Source: Actinomycetota bacterium (GTDB lineage Bacteria; Actinomycetota; Thermoleophilia; RBG-16-64-13). From it: a stretch of DNA of 64,000 nt. Below are positions 2,795-11,126 of this stretch, in pieces. The translations under genes were made by a program, and so were the position numbers. Within the stretch, counting starts at the first letter, position 1; each line of letters starts with the position of its first letter. Location of the stretch: assembly GCA_012514635.1 (NCBI GenBank), contig JAAYZX010000006.1, positions 1-64,000 on the forward strand, in the 5' to 3' direction. A model generated the notes under the pieces. The model was not told the DNA's origin. It searched no databases and saw only the letters and a list, made by a program, of their open reading frames with translations.

Positions 2795-3982
2795 ATGAAC
2801 ATGCACTTGAAACAATCCTGGAGACAACCCCGCAGACCGTGGCGCGTGCGCGTGGGTCTGCTGTACATCGTTTTACTATCACTAGTAGTCGGGCTGCTGG
2901 GAGGCTGCACTTCCGAGACCTCTCCCTCATCCACGGGCGCCTCCGCCCCATCGACTGAGGCGCCCGCCACCACCCAACCTCCTACTACCGAAGCGACAAC
3001 CAGGGTCCTGACCGACATGGCAGGCAGAGAAGTGGTGGTCCCGGCGAAAGTGGAAAGAGTCTTCTCGGCGATACCCATCGGTACGGTACTGCTTTATACA
3101 TTGGATCCCGCCATACTGTGTGCGAAGAACTTCGATCTTTCTGATATGGAGCGCTTGTACACGGTCGATTCATATCAAGCTCTACCCGTCATGGGAACTT
3201 ACATCGTGGGTGACACCACGAACATCGAAGAGTTGCTCGAATTAAAGCCGGATGTGGTCCTATATGCCGGATTCATCAACGACCAATGGAAGACTCAAGT
3301 CTACGCCGCACAGAAGAGACTGGGGATCCCGGTCGTGATGGTGGACAGCGCTCTAGATAAAACGCCTGAAACCTACACTTTGATAGGGGAGCTCATAGGC
3401 CAAGAGACCCGAGCCAAGGAACTGAGCGACTACTGCAAGAACACCATCGATGAAGCCAAGCAGATCTCTGCGACGATAGACTCCGCCAGAAGCATTTATT
3501 ACGCCGCCGGTGAGGTGCTGTCCACGTATGCCAAGGGTTCGATCCACTCGGAGTTGATCGACTTTGTCGGCGGCGACAACGTCGTCGTCGTCGAATCTAA
3601 GAGCCCTTTCGCACGAGTCACAGTCGTCTGGGAACAACTGCTCAACTGGAACCCGGACATGATTATCACCAACAGTCCGCACACGCGAGGCGGCGCGGCG
3701 AGCGATGTGCGCACTGAACTGTTGACCAACAGCAAGTATTCAGATATGACGGCCGTCCAGAACTCTGAGGTCTTCACCATCCCCTGCGCCCCATTCAACT
3801 GGTTTGGAGAGCCACCCTCGGTAGCACGGATACTGGGAATCAAGTGGCTGGGTTCATTGATGTATCCGGACAAATATGACTATGACATGGTCGCGGAGAC
3901 GAAGGCGTTCTATTCCAAGTTCTATCACTTAGAACTAACGGATGCTCAGTTCGACCAGATCACCGAGAACTCCTTACGATAA
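2795..3982 (+). CDS. ABC-type cobalamin/iron-siderophore-like substrate-binding lipoprotein (BtuF/FecB/TroA fold)
   Basis: Lipobox LLGGCTS, TDMAGREVVVPAKVERVFSAIP, NIEELLELKPDVVLY. Confidence 0.8.
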   Translation: MNMHLKQSWRQPRRPWRVRVGLLYIVLLSLVVGLLGGCTSETSPSSTGASAPSTEAPATTQPPTTEATTRVLTDMAGREVVVPAKVERVFSAIPIGTVLLYTLDPAILCAKNFDLSDMERLYTVDSYQALPVMGTYIVGDTTNIEELLELKPDVVLYAGFINDQWKTQVYAAQKRLGIPVVMVDSALDKTPETYTLIGELIGQETRAKELSDYCKNTIDEAKQISATIDSARSIYYAAGEVLSTYAKGSIHSELIDFVGGDNVVVVESKSPFARVTVVWEQLLNWNPDMIITNSPHTRGGAASDVRTELLTNSKYSDMTAVQNSEVFTIPCAPFNWFGEPPSVARILGIKWLGSLMYPDKYDYDMVAETKAFYSKFYHLELTDAQFDQITENSLR

Positions 3983-3987
3983 TCAAA

Positions 3988-4029
3988 CGGGTTCCGGAGT
4001 GTACGAGAAGCCCCACACTCCGGAACCCG
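3988..4029 (+). other. intercistronic hairpin
   Basis: CGGGTTCCGGAGTGT - 12 nt - ACACTCCGGAACCCG, 15-bp perfect stem, no U tract. Confidence 0.7.
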
Positions 4030-4057
4030 CAACACTCAGACGGAGAAAAATCGAATC

Positions 4058-5275
4058 ATGGATATTTCAGCCACAGACAGAATTGGTGAGCTTCTTCACC
4101 AACATCCCCAACTACTTGATGTCTTCCGCGCCAAGGGCTTCAAGGCGGAGACGACATCAGAACTGATCGACAGCCTGGGAGAGGACACGATGCTCAAGAC
4201 CGTCTTGAGCGTCAAAGGCATCGACCCCGCCCTGTTCCTAGTCATGCTCAACGAGCGTCTCGGCACCGATATGGCGCTGCAGCAAATCGCCTATGACTTC
4301 TACGATCCGGACGCACCGGTGAACCTGTTGGTTAAGACCGCCTGCCCCATCAACGCGCTATTCAAGGACCAACTATACGAGCGAGTAGCCCAGAATGAGG
4401 CGGATACCGGCAGACGCGTCAACACGTATCTGGTAGACGGATGCAATGCGCCGCACGCTTTCGATCGCTTCTGGGAGCCCGATACCATCGATGGCCTCCC
4501 GGACATCATCATGTCCATGTCCTTTGACGAGATGTACGACGGGCGTTTCGTAGAGAAATACGTCACCAAGGGGCATTTCGAGAACGTGCTGAGGCCCATC
4601 CGCAGCGGATACGAATACCTGGATTGCGAAGACGACGCCTATACCCTCATAGCGGCTTTGGCGCTGGTGATAGTGGTGGACGAAGCAAAACTCGGAGACC
4701 TGCCGCTACCAAGACGATGGGAAGACCTGCTCGACCCGATGTACAGGGACAAGATCGTAGGCTTCGGCAACAACGGCCGCATCTTCGAGTACTCGATGTA
4801 CTACTTCTTCAAAGAGTTCGGCCCCGAGGGCGTGAAAAAGATCGCCGAGAACACCAAGGGGATCTTCCACGCGGCCAAGATGACCAAGCTCGTGGGGACG
4901 AACAACCGGGACGCTGAAGCCATCTACATCATGCCGTTGACCTTCGCAGAGATGTGCAGGAAGCAGAAGACCACCATCATCTATCCAGAAGACGGGGCAT
5001 GGATGATCCCGATGTCTTGTCTGGTGAAGAAAGAGAAGAAAGAAGAACTCGCGGGCATAATCGACTTCGTCGTCCACACATACGGGCAGATGTGCGCAGA
5101 CATGAGTGCCGTGGCCTTCAGCCCCAAGGCCGTCAACCGGGTCGGCCCGGAGATCAAGCTGAAATGGCTGGGGTGGGACCACATAAAAGGGACCGACATG
5201 TGGGGCCACGGCAAGGCCATCTGTGAGGATTTTCACGCCGTGTATGACAACAAGGCACCGGTGACCGAACCATGA
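4058..5275 (+). CDS. DUF1858/ScdA_N-like N-terminal domain fused to an ABC substrate-binding-protein fold, no signal peptide
   Basis: N-term DRIGELLHQHPQLLDVFRAKGF...GIDPALFLVMLNERL; C-terminal periplasmic-binding-like region; no hydrophobic leader. Confidence 0.65.
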   Translation: MDISATDRIGELLHQHPQLLDVFRAKGFKAETTSELIDSLGEDTMLKTVLSVKGIDPALFLVMLNERLGTDMALQQIAYDFYDPDAPVNLLVKTACPINALFKDQLYERVAQNEADTGRRVNTYLVDGCNAPHAFDRFWEPDTIDGLPDIIMSMSFDEMYDGRFVEKYVTKGHFENVLRPIRSGYEYLDCEDDAYTLIAALALVIVVDEAKLGDLPLPRRWEDLLDPMYRDKIVGFGNNGRIFEYSMYYFFKEFGPEGVKKIAENTKGIFHAAKMTKLVGTNNRDAEAIYIMPLTFAEMCRKQKTTIIYPEDGAWMIPMSCLVKKEKKEELAGIIDFVVHTYGQMCADMSAVAFSPKAVNRVGPEIKLKWLGWDHIKGTDMWGHGKAICEDFHAVYDNKAPVTEP

Positions 5276-5964
5276 GACCTCTCAGGCTGGTCACCGTGAC
5301 GGGCCCACCCTCAGCCGGCAAGACTTCCGTGATCATGAGAACCGTCGAGCACCTCAGAGACGACGGGCTCGAGATCGGCGTTGTGAAGTTCGATTGTCTC
5401 TCGACTCGCGACGATGCCCTATACGAGAAGCTCGGGATCAAGGTCCGCGTAGGGCTTTCGGGCAATCTGTGCCCCGACCACTACTACATGAGCAACATCG
5501 AGGACTGTGTACAGTGGGGGCGTAGAGAAGGGCTTGAGGTGTTGCTGATCGAGAGCGCCGGCCTGTGCAACCGATGCGCACCCCATGTGAAAGGTGTTCT
5601 TTCCGTCTGTGTGATCGACTGCCTATCTGGGGTCTTCACGCCTAAGAAGATCGGCCCGATGCTCAAGATGGCGGACATAGTGGCCATAACGAAAGGCGAC
5701 ATAGTCTCGCAGGCCGAGCGGGAGGTCTTCGTCTTTCAAGTCCAGCAGACCAACCCGCGCGCTTCGATATTCCTCATCAACGGCATCACCGGCCAGGGAG
5801 CCTATGATCTGAGCGCCTTCGTACGGGAAGCAGCAGAGGTCCACAGTCTGGTGGACGGACGACTGAGATTCACGATGCCGGCTGCGGTCTGCTCCTATTG
5901 CACCGGTGAGACCAGGATAGGGACGGACTATCAGGTGGGCAACATCAAAAAGATGCGGATCTAG
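5272..5964 (+). CDS. HypB/UreG-type (SIMIBI) GTPase, putative metallochaperone
   Basis: Walker A GPPSAGKTS; LCPDHYY, CNRCAPH and CSYC motifs; overlaps the previous gene by ATGA. Confidence 0.75.
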   Translation: MRPLRLVTVTGPPSAGKTSVIMRTVEHLRDDGLEIGVVKFDCLSTRDDALYEKLGIKVRVGLSGNLCPDHYYMSNIEDCVQWGRREGLEVLLIESAGLCNRCAPHVKGVLSVCVIDCLSGVFTPKKIGPMLKMADIVAITKGDIVSQAEREVFVFQVQQTNPRASIFLINGITGQGAYDLSAFVREAAEVHSLVDGRLRFTMPAAVCSYCTGETRIGTDYQVGNIKKMRI

Positions 5965-5982: not shown

Positions 5983-7005
5983 GTGGTCAACGATCTGGCT
6001 GCAGTTCGCATCAACGAACTGCTCGACAAATACTCATATGCCGGTGACTTCTTCGTCGCCAACGGCATCAACTTCTCGGACACCGACCAGACGATAGAGG
6101 CGTTGGTCTCTTCGCTGCGCGACGAAGAATTGGACGACATCGGACTCGACCAAGAGCGGATCATCAGCGACCTGGCCGACTTCCTTGAGCGGATGGAAAG
6201 ATTGAAGAGCGGCTCGGCTCCCGATGTGAGCTCCATCAGCATCCTTGGCGGCAGCGACAAAGCGGGAGAGCCCGAGTCGATCACCCTGGAGCTCAAGGTG
6301 GGAGAGGTCGTGGCCGTCGTGGGGCCGACAGGCTCCGGCAAGAGCAGGCTGTTGGCAGACATCGAGTGCCTGGCTCAACGGGATACACCCACGGGCAGGC
6401 AGATCCTCGTCAACGGCGCGGTGCCCGACAGAAGCAGAAGATTCGCCATCGAGAACAAACTGGTGGCGCAACTGTCACAGAACATGAACTTCGTGGTCGA
6501 CCTGTCGGTGGAAGAATTCGTAGGATTGCACGCCGAAAGCCGGATGCTGACCGATGTCGACGGAGCAATCGACGAGATCATCAGTTGCGCCAACGAATTG
6601 GCCGGAGAGGAATTCGCGCGATCGACGCCACTGACTCAGTTGAGTGGTGGCCAGTCCAGAGCGCTGATGATAGCCGACACGGCTCTCCTGAGCGTCTCGC
6701 CGATAGTCCTCATCGACGAGATAGAGAACGCCGGCATCGACAGAAGGAAGGCGGTCCAATTCCTGGTCAAGAAAGAGAAGTTGGTCCTGATATCAACCCA
6801 CGACCCCGTGCTTGCCTTGGCGGGCGACAAGAGGATAGTGATCAGGAATGGAGGTATCGGCGAGGTGATCGTTATGTCGGATGAAGAGAAGGCATTGATC
6901 GATGTCTTGGAGGACGTCGACAAGAGGATGGCAGACATCAGGAACCACATCAGGAAGGGTGGCATCGTAGAGAAGACGATGGTGGATTTCAGCAGCACTC
7001 GTTAG
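5983..7005 (+). CDS. ABC ATPase with DUF1858/ScdA_N-like N-terminal domain
   Basis: GTG start with SD; Walker A GPTGSGKS, signature LSGGQ, Walker B IVLIDEIENAG, H-loop STHD; N-term RINELLDKYSYAGDFFVANGINF. Confidence 0.8.
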   Translation: MVNDLAAVRINELLDKYSYAGDFFVANGINFSDTDQTIEALVSSLRDEELDDIGLDQERIISDLADFLERMERLKSGSAPDVSSISILGGSDKAGEPESITLELKVGEVVAVVGPTGSGKSRLLADIECLAQRDTPTGRQILVNGAVPDRSRRFAIENKLVAQLSQNMNFVVDLSVEEFVGLHAESRMLTDVDGAIDEIISCANELAGEEFARSTPLTQLSGGQSRALMIADTALLSVSPIVLIDEIENAGIDRRKAVQFLVKKEKLVLISTHDPVLALAGDKRIVIRNGGIGEVIVMSDEEKALIDVLEDVDKRMADIRNHIRKGGIVEKTMVDFSSTR

Positions 7006-7340: not shown

Positions 7341-8144
7341 ATGGCAAGAGCCGACCTGACTACACGAGAGTTCCTCGAGCAATACGCGGTCTTCACAACA
7401 GCCGAGTTCCGTGCCGCGCTTGCTGCAGATGTGCCCTCCTCAACCGTGCTCAACCGGCTCCACCAGGCCCTCAAACGAGGCTACACTGAGAGGATTCGAC
7501 AGGGCGTATACGCGTCTCGTGTTGGAACATTCGCAAGATCGGTCCCCGATCCATTGATAGTCGCATCGAGACTCGCCACTGACTACGTCATCGCATACCA
7601 TACGGCGCTCGAAGCACATGGGATCGCGCACGCACCCTTCCGGCGCGTGACCATAGTGTCCACCCGCACTCCCTTCAGCTTAGAATACCGTGGCTACGAG
7701 TTCGTGGCCCGCCGCCCGCGAAAATCTCTCCTAGCCAATGATGCATGGAAGACCCTCGTCGTGCCGCTGCGAAGAGGCGACGAACTCGTGAACGTCACTT
7801 CTCGAGAACGCACTCTGGTCGATTGCCTTGCCAACTTGAAGTGGGCCGGCGGCATCGAGGAGGTGCTTCGGAGCGTCGGAAGCTTCCCATCGCTGAACGT
7901 AGAAAATCTGATCGCCTATGTCGATCTGCTCAATTCTCCAAGTATAGCCGCCAAGGTGGGGTGGGTGCTCTCTGCGGATCCCCAGCTCTGGAGACTGACA
8001 ACGGAGGACCTGGACGCGCTACGATCGCTACTCGGCAAAGGACCCTATTTCCTGGATACACGGGCCCAACCCTTGTTGTTGGTCAACGACTGGAGTCTCT
8101 ATATTCCTGCCGGTCTCGACCCTGTCGAGGAGCTGCGGAGGTGA
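7341..8144 (+). CDS. abiEi: AbiEi-family antitoxin (type IV TA)
   Basis: N-terminal wHTH, RQGVYAS...YHTALEAHGIAH motif, adjacent nucleotidyltransferase toxin. Confidence 0.8.
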   Translation: MARADLTTREFLEQYAVFTTAEFRAALAADVPSSTVLNRLHQALKRGYTERIRQGVYASRVGTFARSVPDPLIVASRLATDYVIAYHTALEAHGIAHAPFRRVTIVSTRTPFSLEYRGYEFVARRPRKSLLANDAWKTLVVPLRRGDELVNVTSRERTLVDCLANLKWAGGIEEVLRSVGSFPSLNVENLIAYVDLLNSPSIAAKVGWVLSADPQLWRLTTEDLDALRSLLGKGPYFLDTRAQPLLLVNDWSLYIPAGLDPVEELRR

Positions 8145-9085
8145 CCACGCCCATCCTCCAACCACCGGGCGACTTCGCACCACAGACCGTTGATAAAGTA
8201 GAACGCCTTCTCGGGCTCCTCGGCGAAATCAACGATCATCGCTACCTCGGCCCCCGGCTGGTCTTGCACGGGGGCACGGCCCTGAATGTTTTCCACCTCG
8301 ATATCCCAAGGCTATCCGTTGACATCGATGTACTGTATGTTGGAGCAGTATCGCGGGACACGATGCTGGCCGAACGACCGGAAATCTGCGGAGAGTTGGA
8401 GACTTTGGCCTACAAGTTAGGTTATCGGCACAATGCGCCCCCTGAGGAGTATGCAGGGGTCACCTACAAGTTCGTGTACCGGACCCGCTGGGGGGAAGAC
8501 ATGATCAAGGTCGACCTCAACTTCCTCAATAGGTCTCCCATTCTAGGTCACGAGATGACACCTTGCCGACATTGCATCCCAGAGGTGCAATTCAGAGTTG
8601 TTCCGTACGCGGAACTCATTGCAGGTAAGATCAAAGCATTGGTGGAGAGAAGAAGCGCAGCCACACGTGACCTCTACGATCTATACCGGGCTTCGCAGGT
8701 TGATTTCGATGATTGGGCATTGCTGCAATCCATCGTAGTCCACTACTGGACGCTGGCTGACACCTTCCCCCGATCTCTTGACGGGTCGATGGTGGAGAGA
8801 TTTCTCGGACAGGAGCGTGGACTAGAGTCAGATTTATTCCCGGTGCTTCTTCCGGCAGAGCGACCAAAGCTGGGAGAGATGGTCGAGGCCGTAGCCTTGT
8901 TTCTGGAGCGACTAGGCGCTCTTTCCCCAGAACAGAGAAAATATATGGACCTGATGGCGGAATCGGGAGAATATCGGCCCGAACTGGTCTTCAGTCCGTG
9001 GCCGGAGGTCCTGGAGAGAGCCAAATCAAGTCCAGCGGCAGCTTGGAAGGTGCATAACCTGCAAAAAAGGGGACATCGGCACTAA
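8141..9085 (+). CDS. abiEii: AbiEii-family nucleotidyltransferase toxin
   Basis: LHGGTALNVFHLDIPRLSVDIDV motif, YAELIAGKIKAL; GTGA overlap with abiEi. Confidence 0.85.
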   Translation: MTTPILQPPGDFAPQTVDKVERLLGLLGEINDHRYLGPRLVLHGGTALNVFHLDIPRLSVDIDVLYVGAVSRDTMLAERPEICGELETLAYKLGYRHNAPPEEYAGVTYKFVYRTRWGEDMIKVDLNFLNRSPILGHEMTPCRHCIPEVQFRVVPYAELIAGKIKALVERRSAATRDLYDLYRASQVDFDDWALLQSIVVHYWTLADTFPRSLDGSMVERFLGQERGLESDLFPVLLPAERPKLGEMVEAVALFLERLGALSPEQRKYMDLMAESGEYRPELVFSPWPEVLERAKSSPAAAWKVHNLQKRGHRH

Positions 9086-9336
9086 GCGGATCAAGACGTC
9101 AGAACGATAAGCAAAACCTTGCTGCTCTAGTTCGGAGGCGATATCCGCTGGGACGAGAAAGATCGTGCTGATGGATCCCAGACTGTTCTTGGCCCCCGTC
9201 GATAACTCATCTCGAGGCACCGAGCCGAGCCACTGGACTTCACGCACGTCGGCAGCGATGTGAAACTGACCCCATCCCATCACTTTGAAACGGACCCCCA
9301 CCAAAGGAAGTAGTAGGGTTTCCTCGGAAAGGATGC

Positions 9337-10349
9337 ATGCCGAGGGAGGGATCCGTGATCAGACTGGAGGAATGGGTGGACATCGTGGCTCTGCACCGAC
9401 AAGGTTATCTATCAAGGCCATCTCCCGACAGTTGGGCATCTCTCGCAATGCGGTGAGACGGGCCCTGCGCCGGGACGGACCGCCGGTGAGGGCGCCGCAG
9501 AAGCGTCCGCCCTCCAAGCTTGAGCCCTATAAGGACTATCTGCTCTCTCGTCTGGCGGAATTCCCCGAACTCTCCGCCGCCGCCCTTTTCGAGGAGATCC
9601 AGGCCCAGGGATACGAGGGTGGCCTCACCATCCTTCGCAACTTCACCCGACCCTATCGGGTGCGTCGGCGCGAGCCGGTGGTCCGCTTCGAGACCCCGCC
9701 CGGCCATCAAGCTCAGGTCGACTGGGCGCATCTTGGCACTCACCCGCTCTCGGGCCGGCCCACGCCGCTCTACCTCTTTGTCTTTGTTCTCGGCTTCTCC
9801 CGGGCCCTTTATGCAGAAGTGACCACCTCCACCGACCTATCCACGCTCATCAGTTGTCACCTGCACGCCTTCGCCGCCCTTGGGAGCATGCCTGAGGAGA
9901 TCCTTTATGACAACCAGAAACAGGTGGTTCTTTCGCGCACCGCAGACGGGCCCCGCTTCCACCCGGAGTTCCTTTTCTTCTGCGGCCAGTTCGGCTTCCG
10001 CCCCCGCCTTTGCCGCCCCTACCGGGCCCAGACCAAGGGCAAGGTGGAGCGCTCCATCGGTTATCTCAAAGACCGCTTCTTCTGCGGGCGCACCTTCACC
10101 GATCTCACCGACATGAACCTGAGCCTCGAACGCTGGGTCCGTGAGGTGGCGAACGAGCGGGAGCACGCCACCACCGGGGAAGCCCCCAACGTGCGGCTGG
10201 GGCGCGAGAACCTGCGGCCCTTGAGCGCCGCTCGGCCTTGGCATGGAGGTCTTCCTCCCTCTCTCGGCCCCAAGGCTCCGCTGTTCAAAGTGGTCCCGCC
10301 CGAGGTCGAGCAGCGGCCACTCTCGGTCTATGAGGAGGTGGCGGTGTGA
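9337..10349 (+). pseudogene. istA: IS21 transposase IstA, N-terminal frameshift near 9405
   Basis: MPREGSVIRLEEWVDIVALHRQG in frame 1, LSIKAISRQLGISRNAVRRALRR... in frame 3; the relic at 19.8 kb keeps the contiguous frame. Confidence 0.75.
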
Positions 10350-11126
10350 ACCTGGAGCTGGAACGGATCGCCGCTCATGCCACCCGCCTGAGGCTTCCCC
10401 ATATCGCCGAGAACCTGCCTCTGCTCGCCGAGGAGGCGGCCCGGAAGGAATGGAGCTATACCGAGCTGGTGGAGCGGGTGCTGGCCGAGGAAGTAGCGGC
10501 GAATCGACCGAAGGACGGTGGAGGTGCTCGCCAAGACGGCCACGCTGCCCTTCGGTCGCAGCCTGGAGGAGTTCGACTTCAGCTTCCAGCCCTCGGTCAA
10601 GGAGCGTCAACTCCGGGAACTCGCGAGCTGCGCTTTCATCGAACGCCGGGAGAACGTGATCTTCCTGGGGCCGCCGGGGGTGGGCAAGACGCACTTGGGC
10701 GTGGCTCTTGCCACGGAAGCTCTGCGCAGGCGCCTCAAGGTGAAGTTCACTACAGCAGCTGCTCTCGTCTCTTCACTCGCCGATGCCGAGCGCATCGGGA
10801 CGCTTCCCCGGCGTCTCGCCATCTTCACCGGCCCCAGTCTGCTCGTCATCGACGAGATCGGCTTCCTGCCGCTGGACGCTCATCAGGCCAACCTGCTTTT
10901 CCAGGTGGTCTCCCGGCGCTATGAACAGGGCTCGATCATTCTCACCAGCAACAAGAGCTACGGGGAGTGGGCTGAGGTGTTCGCCGGGGATGCCGTCATC
11001 GCCGCGGCCATCCTCGATCGGTTGCTTCATCACTCGACGACCATCAGCATCAAGGGTGATAGTTACCGTCTCAAAGACAAGAGACGGGCAGGGCTCCTGC
11101 GGAAGGAGGACGCCATAAGGGATTAG
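10346..11126 (+). pseudogene. istB: IS21 helper ATPase IstB, frameshift near 10505
   Basis: MNLELERIAAHATRLRLPHIAENL...VLAEEVAA in one frame, TVEVLAKTATLPFGRSLEEFDF...GVGKTHLGVAL in another. Confidence 0.75.

Follow-up and report, generated by a model that had tools for sequence, protein, structure and literature searches.

A solute-binding-fold protein without an export signal, encoded together with a HypB/UreG-like GTPase and a soluble ABC ATPase: a candidate cytosolic metal-handling trio

The window, a stretch of 64,000 nucleotides from an Actinomycetota bacterium, carries on its forward strand at 4058–5275 (ATG at 4058, stop codon ending at 5275) a gene for a protein of 405 residues with the N-terminus MDISATDRIGELLHQ. 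The Pfam search placed DUF1858 at residues 3–60 (E 3.7e-9, 37 bits against the curated cut-off of 32.2) and SBP_bac_6 at residues 146–377 (E 1.5e-57, 195.3 bits against the cut-off of 24.6). A preliminary description of this DNA had proposed a DUF1858-like N-terminal domain joined to a solute-binding protein (SBP), and these matches bear out both proposals, a lack of SBP homology by HMM being excluded. ScdA_N, a separate Pfam model suggested in the same description, did not appear in the Pfam search with the SBP. The type II SBP domain spans residues ~88–400 and is connected to DUF1858 by a linker. Among the 39 SBP relatives, all matched SBP_bac_6 and 32 matched DUF1858, which was not found in the other seven.

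An AlphaFold2 model of the SBP was built from 39 family members. The model was confident (mean pLDDT 90.7) and showed a helical N-terminal domain, with helices within residues 9–78, followed by a two-lobed SBP domain; the confidence was low at residues 74–78. The Foldseek search with this model returned P5PA, AfuA, FbpA, FutA, and SfuA, each with a probability of 1.00. The profile search agreed with Foldseek, and the DUF1858 part also matched the solved protein 2fi0.

The SBP gene opens a cassette of three genes in the order SBP, GTPase, and ABC ATPase. The GTPase gene (5272–5964, forward strand, product of 230 residues) starts within the stop of the SBP gene (ATGA), and the ATPase gene (5983–7005, forward strand) starts with GTG. 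Upstream of the SBP gene, at a distance of 76 bp, lies a gene on the same strand (2795–3982) for an exported FecB/BtuF-type lipoprotein (Peripla_BP_2), which is probably the outside partner of an importer. The gap between these two genes contains a strong forward-strand hairpin at 3988–4029 with a stem of ~15 bp and no T-run (z = −5.6), possibly a terminator-like or mRNA-processing element.

SBP_bac_6 is a normally exported family. The open frame upstream of the SBP start codon spans 25 codons (3983–4057, SNGFRSVREAPHSGTRNTQTEKNRI) and is closed off by the stop codon of the gene before it; over this entire length it contains neither a hydrophobic run nor a possible start (ATG, GTG, or TTG). 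An upstream start encoding a signal peptide is thus excluded at this locus. The strongest 15-residue hydropathy within the first 60 residues did not exceed 1.73 in any of the 66 SBP relatives. Meanwhile, 12 of the 13 FecB-type lipoproteins encoded at the same loci reached at least 2.36, and the remaining one had an over-extended start. As all 66 relatives are leaderless by this measure, the leaderless N-terminus is a property of the SBP family, and the earlier claim that the protein has no export signal holds. A cytoplasmic location of the SBP is well supported by the leaderless N-termini here and in the relatives, by the tight linkage with a gene for a cytosolic GTPase, and by the lack of a permease. 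The preliminary description had read the protein as a cytoplasmic ligand-binding component. Its location is borne out as far as sequence can tell, but this reading was incomplete, as it had overlooked the three-gene system with a GTPase and an ABC ATPase.

The product of the second gene is a HypB/UreG-like SIMIBI GTPase of the metallochaperone type. Both sequence and structure searches with this protein returned UreG and HypB first. In spite of this, it scored far below the NCBIfam equivalog cut-offs for HypB (52.9 against 121.2) and UreG (28.5 against 204.2), and its relatives matched both models likewise without standing out. The residues Cys42, Cys67-Pro-Asp-His70, Cys99, Cys102, Cys113, Cys207, and Cys210 are invariant, although the structural model has low confidence in the C-terminal region holding Cys207 and Cys210. 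The CPDH motif sits where UreG has CPH and HypB has Cys-His. In the profile alignments, Cys67 and His70 fell on Cys95 and His96 of Methanocaldococcus jannaschii HypB, and Cys67-Pro68 fell on the Cys-Pro of UreG. The HypB of M. jannaschii binds zinc through Cys95, His96, and Cys127, and nickel binding by the HypB of Helicobacter pylori requires Cys106 and His107 (PMC7055735). The GTPase of the window therefore appears to match the Cys-His metal site of the HypB-type G domain, and we regard the motif as a putative metal site.

The third protein is a soluble ABC ATPase, whose Q-loop (AQLSQNMNF) is unusually invariant. Ahead of the ABC fold, some 70 residues make up an N-terminal domain, in which a DUF1858-type domain can be placed at residues ~6–69. 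Pfam did not call DUF1858 in this protein. In hhalign, the DUF1858 of the SBP aligned with the N-terminal domain of the ATPase over 64 columns with a probability of 96%, as against 0.2–0.3% for four control pairings made from other segments. The profile comparison thus argues that the two N-terminal domains are homologous and of the DUF1858 type. The presence of the same domain type on two of the three proteins suggests docking between them. Such a contact is not essential everywhere, since seven of the 39 SBPs and the ATPases of Fusobacterium and Cetobacterium lack the domain.

To follow the cassette across genomes, the GTPase alignment was scanned against the GTDB species genomes, which gave at least 411 relatives; the best 80 of the 411 were kept, so that the frequencies given here describe the 80 loci nearest to the query. 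Among the 73 GTPase loci with enough flanking sequence, which come from many phyla, the SBP gene lay just upstream in 64 and the ABC ATPase gene just downstream in 72. After the removal of the over-sampled Marinifilaceae, the counts were 47 and 55 out of 56. Fusobacterium vincentii has the trio in the same arrangement, with identities of 59% for the GTPase, 58% for the ATPase, and 27% for the SBP. When the SBP was scanned as a single protein against genome contigs, no relative was recovered. Nine GTPases have no SBP gene immediately upstream; they are spread over eight loci, each with parts of a FecBCD/DUF364/methyltransferase-type gene set, and four of the genomes they come from show no SBP whatever. 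Of the parts of an ABC importer, the trio has the SBP and the nucleotide-binding protein, and the transmembrane subunit is absent from it. No gene with multiple transmembrane segments and no permease directly adjoined any trio (0 of 55 scored), and in many cases the trio forms an operon by itself, with no transport genes.

The trio occurs mainly in anaerobes, and its cultured carriers include Sporomusa malonica, Pelosinus propionicus, and Acetobacterium paludosum. Searches of 60 genomes from its own family or class found no relative of the copy in the window, and nothing beyond two weak partial matches was found among 199 genomes of the phylum. In the GTPase tree this copy sits on a long branch and groups with Anaerobacterium (Bacillota) and the Deferribacterota (98/90 support). 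The simplest reading is that the trio was gained horizontally in this genome. In four phyla, a gene for a small CxxC...CxxC protein with a weak match to the HypA zinc ribbon lies just 3' of the ATPase gene (L065 11719–12042, L050 11762–12073, L072 4524–4817, and at L058), and its product is a possible fourth partner.

The residues that may form the ligand site of the SBP were sought in the family alignment. Cys96 was present in all 65 sequences having that column and His271 in 64 of 66. In the secondary structure of the model, Cys96 is at the start of the first helix following the first strand of the SBP domain; the matching region in FbpA is the neighbourhood of its iron ligand His9. Both residues may thus be placed at the cleft, as judged from homology and secondary structure. 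In the profile alignment to SfuA, the family motif IMPYFF fell on HYYP, and the SBP of the window has IMPLTF there (Met292-Pro293). The adjacent Tyr-Tyr iron ligands of FbpA are absent from the family, and since these tyrosines are replaced, the protein does not count as a typical ferric-binding SBP. Given its fold and the conserved Cys and His, ligand binding is plausible, and the partnership with the GTPase and the ABC ATPase points to a metal or a metal chelate as the likely ligand.

The surroundings of the trio were examined for genes of metal uptake. The genome of the window has one FecCD permease, encoded on another contig (L088 4933–9360, reverse strand) and adjoining a FecB paralogue that is 37% identical. 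Its neighbours are a paralogue of the Oxidored_molyb-fold lipoprotein encoded in the window at 1958–2629, an ABC ATPase, and a further NTPase. Genes for FecBCD, DUF364/DUF4213, methyltransferases, or TonB/ExbBD were found at twelve loci (L006, L007, L014, L024, L025, L042, L057, L063, L070, L076, L078, and L080). DUF364 has been tied to the transport and chelation of Fe, W, V, and Mo (PMC2954201). The cluster of A. paludosum (L024 9009–19458) combines two GTPase–ATPase pairs, an SBP, FecBCD, DUF364/DUF4213, methyltransferases, and NTPase_1, and is a candidate metallophore system. In two Bacteroidota, a TrmO-type gene lies between the GTPase–ATPase pair and the FecCD permease (L007 11704–12231 and L076 4046–4531).

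Taken singly, the three proteins have folds of known families; their combination, to our knowledge, matches no known system. The nickel metallochaperone GTPases HypB and UreG (SIMIBI, G3E) share with the GTPase of the trio the fold, the P-loop, and the Cys/His site, and are its best PDB matches. However, the latter has the extra invariant residues C42, C99, C102, C113, C207, and C210 and has an SBP and an ABC ATPase as its partners. The SBP has the type II fold in common with ferric-binding proteins of the FbpA/FutA type and with P5PA (SBP_bac_6), but it lacks a signal peptide, the Tyr pair, and a cognate permease, and possesses instead the N-terminal DUF1858, the invariant Cys96, and the near-invariant His271. 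SufC and AtwA, the latter acting in methyl-CoM reductase activation, are ABC ATPases that have no membrane partner and are linked to work on metal cofactors. In its independence of the membrane the ATPase of the trio resembles them, whereas its N-terminal DUF1858-type domain and its partners, an SBP-fold protein and a metallochaperone-type GTPase, set it apart. The FecBCD/BtuFCD-type importers with DUF364/DUF4213 (putative heavy-metal chelation) cluster with the GTPase–ATPase pair in several genomes; these importers are genuine membrane systems, whereas the trio lacks a permease and is found in their absence as well. Our literature search, which covered the field in part, found neither the pairing of DUF1858 with a solute-binding domain nor the trio, and an earlier description elsewhere is possible.

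We consider it an even call that the SBP serves in the cytosol as the ligand-binding component of an NTP-driven metal-handling machine, made up of three proteins and free of the membrane. What speaks for this in the sequences is the missing export signal, the SBP fold, the two DUF1858-type domains, the UreG/HypB-type motif, and the conserved gene order of the trio. In this reading, the SBP acts in the cytosol. There it would bind a metal ion or a metal chelate in a cleft lined by Cys96 and His271. The substrate probably enters through a FecBCD-type importer in the organism of the window and in a subset of the relatives. The paired DUF1858 domains may bring the SBP and the ABC ATPase together, and ATP-driven dimerisation of the ATPase would then open or unload the SBP, as the nucleotide-binding domains of importers do via the permease. 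The metal would then be handed to the GTPase at its Cys/CPDH site, and the GTPase in turn could deliver it to a client or free it from a chelator in a GTP-gated manner. The broader proposal, that the binding protein and the motor of an importer were recruited to the cytosol, joined by DUF1858, and coupled to a HypB/UreG-like GTPase, giving a new kind of machine for membrane-free metal delivery, is put forward tentatively.

Metal delivery in anaerobes is understood for few clients, namely hydrogenase, urease, CODH, nitrogenase, and B12. If the proposal is true, it adds a route of metal trafficking in which an SBP and an ATPase work off the membrane. The trio is directly testable because it is present in cultured species, including the three named above. 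Three proteins were considered as dedicated clients and rejected: of the 33 trio genomes, 15 had a NiFe hydrogenase over the cut-off and 18 did not, nine had a CODH over it, and 17 a NifH (nitrogenase). None of the three was over the cut-off in the genome of the window or in F. vincentii.

It is rather unlikely, though worth weighing, that the SBP is instead a cytosolic enzyme with a periplasmic-binding fold that acts on a metallophore or a cofactor, in the manner of MqnA, HMP-P synthase (THI5), or porphobilinogen deaminase. Cys96 and His271 would then be catalytic, which is consistent with the full invariance of the Cys and the near-invariance of the His. That related clusters encode methyltransferases and DUF364 hints at chemistry on small molecules, and a PLP-binding protein is among the top structural neighbours of the SBP. 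However, neither MqnA nor THI5 nor porphobilinogen deaminase was among the first 50 Foldseek matches, nearly all of which were transport-type SBPs, and the strict pairing with a GTPase and an ABC ATPase is unusual for an enzyme.

We also find it improbable that the trio repairs or assembles iron–sulfur or other metal centres sensitive to oxygen or NO, with the ATPase acting like SufC. The prevalence of the trio in anaerobes, the presence of hcp nearby in several loci, and the Crp/Fnr-type regulators in some of them are in line with such a function. DUF1858 has been found fused to SufT (PMC4982691) and in a nitrate-respiration protein (PMC6282519). Hcp, which was likewise tried and rejected as a dedicated client, was present in 33 of 38 trio genomes, yet most genomes of the same family that lack the trio have it as well. 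As it is common in these relatives too, it shows no dependence on the trio. Suf and Isc genes were not among the regular neighbours of the trio.

An SBP fold in the cytosol, with DUF1858-type domains as possible docking modules, could also serve a sensor that reads the level of a metabolite or a metal and gates the ATPase and the GTPase without carrying cargo. This is quite improbable, as the trio has no DNA-binding, kinase, or cyclase output domain and its GTPase bears a metal-handling motif. It is more doubtful still that the protein is an ordinary importer SBP, as would be usual for SBP_bac_6, whose leader was lost, was mis-annotated, or was replaced by non-classical export: the frame upstream of the start offers no signal peptide, the N-terminus is leaderless across phyla, no permease is near, and the gene is coupled to that of a cytosolic GTPase. 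The directly 3' lying AbiEi/AbiEii-type toxin–antitoxin pair (7341–9085) and the ABC protein, whose ATPase domain weakly matched models of defence systems, might hint at an anti-phage defence island including the trio, but this is scarcely credible, as neither the SBP nor the GTPase matched any PADLOC model and AbiE was not seen as a recurring neighbour family in the relatives. Further downstream, an IS21-type istA/istB-like pair was recognised by eye at 9285–11126, which places the trio near mobile elements.
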